From Gammaproteobacteria bacterium (GTDB lineage Bacteria; Pseudomonadota; Gammaproteobacteria; Xanthomonadales; Wenzhouxiangellaceae): a DNA stretch of 64,000 bases. Both the position numbers and the translations under genes were made by a program. Shown here piece after piece: positions 16,514-16,672 of this stretch. The stretch covers positions 1 through 64,000 of the forward strand of contig PXBD01000030.1 of the NCBI GenBank assembly GCA_003565625.1, given 5' to 3'. Below the pieces are notes generated by a model that searched no databases, was not told the origin of the DNA, and saw only the letters and a list, made by a program, of their open reading frames with translations. Numbering within the stretch: the stretch's first letter is position 1; every line of letters begins with the position of its first letter.

Positions 16514-16603
16514 ATGAGTTTCGTATTCCTCCACAACTGCATGTGCACCATGTGTATGCCGAGCCTTCAGCTGCGGCGTCCAGTTGGTGCGTGTTTCCGT
16601 TGA
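16514..16603 (+). CDS. Met/Cys-rich leader peptide of the metYX operon
   Basis: A 29-codon open frame ending in tandem stops (TGATGA at 16601-16606). Codons 8-15 read NCMCTMCM, i.e. three Cys and three Met in seven consecutive codons; a fourth Cys occurs at codon 27. It lies between a promoter-like TTGACA and an intrinsic terminator, 146 nt upstream of metY. Met and Cys are the product and an S-donor of the pathway encoded downstream, the classic layout of a ribosome-mediated attenuator. No Shine-Dalgarno sequence precedes the ATG, so the message may be leaderless. That it is translated is inferred from composition and position. Confidence 0.7.
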   Translation: MSFVFLHNCMCTMCMPSLQLRRPVGACFR

Positions 16604-16648
16604 TGAACTGAACCGAAACGCCAGACCGAACCAGACGAACCCCGCAGC
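16570..16648 (+). promoter_or_regulatory. Candidate antiterminator pairing in the metYX leader
   Basis: GCTGCGG at 16570-16576, just downstream of the Met/Cys codons, is perfectly complementary to CCGCAGC at 16642-16648, which overlaps the 5' arm of the terminator. Pairing would preclude terminator formation. A competing hairpin, GTGTTTC (16591-16597) with GAAACGC (16615-16621, one G-U), lies between them. This is the minimum needed for a two-state attenuator; only hand pairing was done. Confidence 0.45.
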
Positions 16649-16672
16649 GGCCTGACCGATGCGGGGTTTTTT
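16638..16672 (+). terminator. Intrinsic terminator (attenuator) ahead of metY
   Basis: Perfect 9-bp stem AACCCCGCA (16638-16646) / TGCGGGGTT (16660-16668) with a 13-nt loop, the 3' arm running into TTTTTT (16667-16672). It lies between the leader peptide and metY, with no gene ending nearby on the plus strand, so it most likely acts as an attenuator rather than a gene-end terminator. Confidence 0.85.

Follow-up and report, generated by a model that had tools for sequence, protein, structure and literature searches.

A leader ORF with mixed methionine and cysteine codons and a terminator precede metYX in a gammaproteobacterium and its relatives: a probable transcription attenuator

Control of methionine genes is commonly ascribed to MetJ, MetR, SAM riboswitches, or T-boxes, and the textbook amino-acid attenuators (Trp, His, Leu, Ile/Val, Thr, and Phe) do not, to our knowledge, include methionine. 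Polycysteine leaderless sORFs of mycobacteria were reportedly described by Canestrari in 2020. The control that they exert is called translation attenuation in the accessible part of PMC13236596, and the accessible text of PMC1262725 describes Cys leaders of cys operons with no conserved terminator hairpin, and no methionine structures in Actinobacteria. In S. lividans TK24, the metL leader MSTTSDRTPATEATTTPGARCMCRRMCAF precedes metNIQ and is described as methionine-dependent (PMC8079986, in excerpt). A betaproteobacterial metXZ RNA element comprises six conserved RNA regions with a proposed terminator/antiterminator, and no leader peptide is proposed in the available portion of PMC4239095. 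The 5'UTR of the Xanthomonas met operon (metA-metB-hom) is 52% identical to a SAM-I aptamer and acts mainly at the level of translation, with no leader peptide described (PMC6230763). Atypical B12 riboswitches of M. tuberculosis act together with translation of a uORF (extract of PMC11260477), and no leader peptide for methionine appears in the consulted part of an attenuator survey (PMC2965389).

Here we describe the metYX locus of the window, by which we mean the whole 64-kb stretch of DNA analyzed. This locus probably carries a ribosome-mediated transcription attenuator of the trp/his type, whose control codons would form a mixed Met/Cys block. A sequence-only reading had placed before metY and then metX a 29-codon frame with NCMCTMCM at codons 8-15 and tandem stops, which is correct to the base, and a perfect 9-bp stem running into T6 at 16638-16672, which we confirmed in the sequence. 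The leader and the genes behind it are:
16514-16606, + strand: leader ORF of 29 codons with tandem in-frame stops (sequence; homologues in relatives)
16535-16558, + strand: control codons NCMCTMCM (3 Cys, 3 Met), codons 8-15 (sequence, shuffle test, alignment)
16749-18077, + strand: metY, O-acetylhomoserine/O-acetylserine sulfhydrylase family (TIGR01326, 682.2 bits, cut-off 495.1)
18074-19078, + strand: metX-like homoserine acyltransferase (best match TIGR01392, 293.7 bits, below the cut-off of 500)

The leader peptide read from the window, MSFVFLHNCMCTMCMPSLQLRRPVGACFR, starts at ATG 16514 and is encoded by the frame 16514-16603, the stop TGA at 16601-16603 being followed by a second in-frame TGA at 16604-16606. 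The ATG of metX (18074) overlaps the stop of metY. The full family name of TIGR01326 is O-acetylhomoserine aminocarboxypropyltransferase/cysteine synthase, and the Met+Cys signature would be in keeping with an enzyme family whose name covers the synthesis of cysteine as well as of homocysteine, the Met precursor; a leader sensing both products would be sensible. The neighborhood also contains, on the minus strand, a Doc-family toxin (TIGR01550) and its antidote (TIGR02609) at 19075-19728, both above cut-offs and convergent with metX, and a rhodanese-like gene with weak family matches only at 15975-16415, divergent from the leader and sharing its upstream region.

Met or Cys occupies six of codons 8-15 in the window leader. 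A density of at least six Met/Cys per eight codons is reached at a single place in the window when all six frames are read (as two overlapping eight-codon windows), and 20 dinucleotide shuffles of the window yielded two such windows in total, or 0.1 per 64 kb. We regard the leader device as real rather than accidental because it is conserved in relatives; the window's own antiterminator pairing alone would be insufficient.

MetY was searched in 121 genomes, including that of the window, plus 398 sampled genomes of the order. As the sequence-only reading had anticipated, homologous leaders with Met/Cys codons, a terminator, and compensatory changes are found among relatives: directly ahead of metY in 16 of 16 genomes of the window's own family (f1) with MetY at least 81% identical, its own included, in 3/3 of family f4, and in all three genomes outside the order with MetY at 72% identity or more among 369 sampled from the class. 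That expectation was borne out only in part in genus g15 of family f9, where a Met/Cys leader stands in five of five upstream regions (a sixth genome, G202, with a MetY match only from residue 89, lies outside this count) but a clear intrinsic terminator is absent. One f1 genome, G018, with MetY only 55% identical, has no leader before metY, and outside the order a MetY identity of 61% or lower goes with a leader in one of 13 cases (L106). None of the distant metY homologues of f2 (9), f5 (3), f8 (16), f12 (5), and f9 genus g30 (5) has five Met/Cys in eight codons. Family f11 has the leader in 0/7, and its metY genes are preceded instead by AGACGTCT-type repeats, which we take to be MetJ boxes. 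The covariance model R1 matched 16 sequences at E <1e-20; since it was trained on the other 15, G001 is the sole independent match. Among 14 weaker matches inspected, 13 resemble other attenuators and one (L056) resembles nothing recognizable.

Other candidate attenuators, each with a terminator, were seen alongside. Ten f2 loci (L049, L050, L051, L053, L054, L055, L057, L058, L059, and L061) have Asn-rich leaders (for example, ..ANGRNNALANNRARPMRVCD) before a gene that starts, as we judge it, like asparagine synthetase, and are probable asparagine attenuators by their sequence. Two f12 loci (L052 and L062) have Cys-rich leaders (..AGNCCCPCACVRG.. and ..ADCCRGLFVRG..) before what is presumably a TonB-dependent receptor gene. 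An Arg/Pro-rich leader (..RPCPRRPRRSP..) at L229 and L230, in the window's own genus, precedes a gene that we assume to be acetylglutamate-kinase-like and is a possible arginine attenuator. The f4 locus L060 has a Leu/Val-rich leader (..VVLRVVLPGLLLIPP..) before a presumably leuA-like gene.

When near relatives were counted singly, 33 of 165 metY upstream regions proved to hold a dense Met/Cys ORF in sense, versus 0/165 in antisense. Among 79 of the 80 named metY loci listed (L180 has no upstream DNA), five have at least five Met/Cys in eight codons and five more have four; the antisense strands of the same loci gave 0 and 0, and shuffles 0.0 and 0.8 per 79. Convincing leaders belong to L134 (titled Gemmatimonadetes), L136 (Thermonema rossianum), L142 (Melioribacter), and L152 (Ca. 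Kapaibacterium), and the fifth candidate with at least five in eight is L192 (titled Clostridiaceae), about 85 nt before metY. The weaker leaders, with four in eight, are those of L130, L133, L135, and L146; L153 is also at four, and L124 was added by eye. These phylum names come from the titles of records, most of which are metagenome bins, and one contig titled Methylobacteriaceae nests in Bacteroidota. Distant leaders (other gammaproteobacteria and the Gemmatimonadetes, Thermonema, Melioribacter, and Kapaibacterium records) are unrelated in sequence and retain the Met/Cys block and the layout alone. At L142, about 2080-2480, two tandem Met/Cys leader-terminator modules precede metY, with the pairs CGAAGGG/CCCTTCG and GTGAAGGG/CCCTTCAC. 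A MetY tree of 101 rows, built by a quick method, places 31 of its 32 leader-bearing rows in one 71-row group with 99% support that spans phyla and also holds SAM-I, MetJ, and no-element rows; L106 lies outside it. The f9 locus L026 is placed among Bacteroidota, which suggests transfer.

Three RNA elements lie in and behind the leader ORF:
16638-16672, + strand: intrinsic terminator, 9-bp stem plus T6 (sequence, folding, comparison of leaders)
16570-16576, + strand: antiterminator segment GCTGCGG, exact complement of CCGCAGC at 16642-16648 (swaps, folding)
16545-16590, + strand: possible protector (1:2) hairpin around the antiterminator segment, with its outer arms at 16545-16550 and 16585-16590 (minimum-energy fold)

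The terminator stem is formed by 16638-16646 and 16660-16668, with T6 at 16667-16672; a simple terminator scan of the window did not list it, because its 13-nt loop exceeds the scan's maximum loop of 8. The 181-nt leader region has a folding z of -4.38, with none of 200 shuffles as good. The 7-nt antiterminator pairing proposed from the sequence is indeed exact, but taken alone it is matched by shuffled leaders in 10.5% of trials. If the RNA before 16568 is taken as covered and the terminator 3' arm as yet unmade, the window RNA adopts the antiterminator fold, and the complete RNA folds into the terminator. As long as the 3' arm is missing, the antiterminator also forms in the RNA without a ribosome, so that the 1:2 hairpin is at most a possible protector.

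The pairing itself changes between groups of leaders: GCTGCGG/CCGCAGC in the window, CCGCGGG/CCCGCGG in L007, CCGTGCGGG/CCCGCACGG in L103, CCGGCGCGGGG/CCCCGCGCCGG in L134, and GTGAAGGG/CCCTTCAC in L142. The alignment fold has two of 15 base pairs changed on both sides; since MAFFT mis-registers L006 and L007, covariation was tested by swaps. Over 28 leaders in 12 groups (of 37, we dropped five of f9, two of Bacteroidota, the near-copy L002, and L016, with a terminator score <17), cognate pairing of the terminator arm with the part of the leader past the Met/Cys block amounts to -18.8 kcal/mol versus -13.9 (sd 0.8) for arms exchanged between groups, a contrast that may be exaggerated as the groups differ in G+C. 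None of 2000 exchanges was as strong as the cognate pairing. Taken singly, 16 of the 28 leaders exceed their shuffled versions in pairing at the 0.05 level and 12 do not, the window's included (0.105); L135, L130, and L124, whose cognate pairing is no better than swaps, are weak members. By this comparison of groups, the competing antiterminator co-varies with the terminator arm.

Where the terminator is convincing (29 leaders; f9 and Bacteroidota left out; L016 scored lower, at 40 nt), its 5' arm begins 23-46 nt past the leader stop. Measured from the first base of the last control codon, the antiterminator starts 11-15 nt downstream in each of the 16 f1 leaders (14 or 15 nt in 10 of them) and 5-26 nt downstream across all 29. 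At an offset of 11-15 nt, the leading edge of a stalled ribosome would lie approximately at the antiterminator start. The attenuator features that a sequence can reveal are thus present, namely clustered control codons, an intrinsic terminator, and a co-varying antiterminator; the protector hairpin gave a modest 48 of 2000 in swaps and is not the best fold before the terminator 3' arm exists.

The placement of the leader start was compared with that of a candidate promoter:
16476-16505, + strand: probable promoter, TTGACA at 16476-16481, 18-nt spacer, weak -10 GACACT at 16500-16505 (TTGAC placement across leaders)

The -10 matches TATAAT in three of six positions and ends 8 nt before the leader ATG; an automated promoter scan of the window called none at 16476-16505. 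In 25 of 37 leaders (all 16 of f1, three of f4, L103-L105, L134, L135, and L130), a TTGAC is placed 35-39 nt upstream of the start codon, with 6-11 nt from the -10 to that codon; 24 of the 25 have no Shine-Dalgarno-like motif. The other 12 (f9, Bacteroidota, L106, L124, L142 twice, and L152) do not fit the pattern. Because of this promoter placement and the lack of a Shine-Dalgarno-like motif in 24/25 leaders, the leader mRNA is probably leaderless.

The reading of the locus as a ribosome-mediated attenuator is thus supported at the level of sequence by conserved leaders, the terminator, and covariation of its arm. Transcription would start at the leader ATG or immediately beside it, and the ribosome would initiate without a Shine-Dalgarno site. 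With charged tRNA-Met and tRNA-Cys plentiful, it would reach the stop, leaving the antiterminator segment covered or refolded, so that the terminator could form and metYX would be off. If either charged tRNA were short, the ribosome would stall on the Met/Cys block with the antiterminator segment just free at its leading edge, and this segment could capture the terminator 5' arm and let metYX be transcribed.

On the best reading, charged tRNA-Met and/or tRNA-Cys would be sensed, and which amino acid this is we infer. A single one, Met or Cys, may be sensed and the other merely carried along, a serious possibility toward which we nevertheless do not lean: the leader of L142 and a second one, L142a, have mostly Met, and those of L136 and L146 end in runs of Cys, yet both residues occur in the control block of 37 of the 37 leaders compared.

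Control through translation of metY or through Rho, with no part for the intrinsic terminator, we consider unlikely. It would agree with the f9 and Bacteroidota leaders, which have no convincing intrinsic terminator, and with the metL leader of S. lividans, likewise reported without a clear one in the accessible part of PMC8079986; in the window and most other groups, however, a strong terminator stands at a constant place and co-varies with the leader.

Nascent-chain arrest, in which the Met/Cys-rich peptide itself would stall the ribosome when it senses a small molecule (for instance Met, SAM, a thiol, or a metal), in the way that TnaC responds to tryptophan, is quite unlikely in our view. 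Binding of a metal or thiol by a compact Met/Cys block is conceivable, and within f1 the peptide is conserved in places (MCM, and ..AAxxCTAVF in several leaders), but between groups only the Met/Cys composition is kept while order, number, and neighbors vary, and the start Met and MCM are the sole invariant residues across 18 aligned leaders.

That a SAM riboswitch, T-box, or MetJ site runs metYX and the short ORF is incidental is very improbable: SAM-I precedes metY in some other loci and the f11 relatives have MetJ together with AGACGTCT repeats, but Rfam covariance models gave no match at the gathering score anywhere in the window (SAM riboswitch and T-box included), MetJ was not found in the window's own genome (G000, 89.5% complete), and the leader is conserved without such elements. 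Known riboswitches and MetJ were rejected as controllers of the window metYX on these grounds. MetJ was likewise not found in 14 other leader-bearing genomes (0/15 in all) and is present in five of five f11 genomes tested.

Depending on the lineage, metY is found behind MetJ boxes, SAM-I, or the Met/Cys leader. The Rfam search covered 78 of the 80 named loci listed and 27 others (L001-L025 and most of L063-L102 lay outside it), and a SAM-I aptamer (RF00162) precedes metY in 22 of the loci examined, not counting L131, L139, L189, and L196, where it lies far upstream. The first ATG opens an ORF of 8-46 codons at 5-12 nt past the aptamer end in 13 of the 22 and is 28-126 nt away in the remaining nine. 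Eight of these 13 close ORFs have at least four Met/Cys and the other five have 0-3. Seven are hybrids of SAM-I and a leader (L026, L064, L065, L067, L133, L136, and L146), with 7-11 nt between the SAM-I end and the leader ATG; L154, where the four Met/Cys are spread out, was not counted. At L147, L148, L149, L150, L151, and L154, a short ORF poor in Met/Cys opens with an ATG 5-12 nt past the SAM-I end. The gammaproteobacterial locus L106 has SAM-II (RF00521) and a terminator-like sequence ahead of a 55-codon Met/Cys leader with its own terminator, and L066, with a Met/Cys ORF of unsure start, showed no SAM-I even at a permissive threshold.

In such hybrids, SAM would control whether the sensor peptide is translated, and its outcome would depend on charged tRNA-Met/Cys, giving a two-input switch that reads both an end product and a building block. 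As the f9 and Bacteroidota hybrids have no convincing terminators, the second step there may be translational or Rho-dependent. Belief and doubt are about evenly balanced for the broader proposal that a modular Met/Cys sensor spread between phyla together with metY and became wired to SAM riboswitches. One enzyme stands behind three kinds of control in different lineages, which opens sensor exchange to direct testing. If true, the two-amino-acid leader and the riboswitch-gated leader peptide would be compact two-input controls, and the leader may supply a metY regulator where no MetJ was found.

Attenuators of the trp/his/leu type in proteobacteria have the same layout of control codons, antiterminator, and terminator, for other amino acids, and their classical leaders have Shine-Dalgarno sites. 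As far as the accessible parts of the sources go, the mycobacterial polycysteine sORFs and cys-operon leaders are also short ORFs whose control codons encode a sulfur amino acid, and they are leaderless, as the window's leader probably is; but they are Cys only and belong to cys operons, whereas the window has a mixed Met/Cys block and an intrinsic terminator. The metXZ element (PMC4239095, in part) also concerns methionine genes and a proposed terminator/antiterminator, and could be compared only indirectly, via metW-anchored regions. Its identity with the Met/Cys leader is not supported, as none of 30 such regions has five Met/Cys in eight codons and two have four; a metX start is recognizable by eye in 23 of the 30, the automatic metX call was wrong in at least six, and the genomes may not be betaproteobacterial. 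The Xanthomonas met 5'UTR, which also controls methionine genes of a gammaproteobacterium, is ruled out as the same device, being SAM-I-like (PMC6230763). The M. tuberculosis B12 riboswitch with its uORF, as far as the extract of PMC11260477 describes it, resembles the SAM-I hybrids only, not the window, and has another ligand. No Met/Cys leader before metY was found in the open full-text literature; most subscription papers were outside its scope, so absence there proves little. The sequence-only reading named no described attenuator with a mixed Met/Cys signature, a point that needs correction: the S. lividans metL leader has Met and Cys codons, is leaderless, and stands ahead of methionine genes, so that the device is not of a new kind. 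The metL leader differs, in the part of PMC8079986 at hand, in that its target is a Met importer, no typical Rho-independent terminator is reported, and it is described in one species. What appears to be new here is metY as the target, the mixed Met/Cys control codons, the probable leaderless start, the wide spread, and the fusions with riboswitches.
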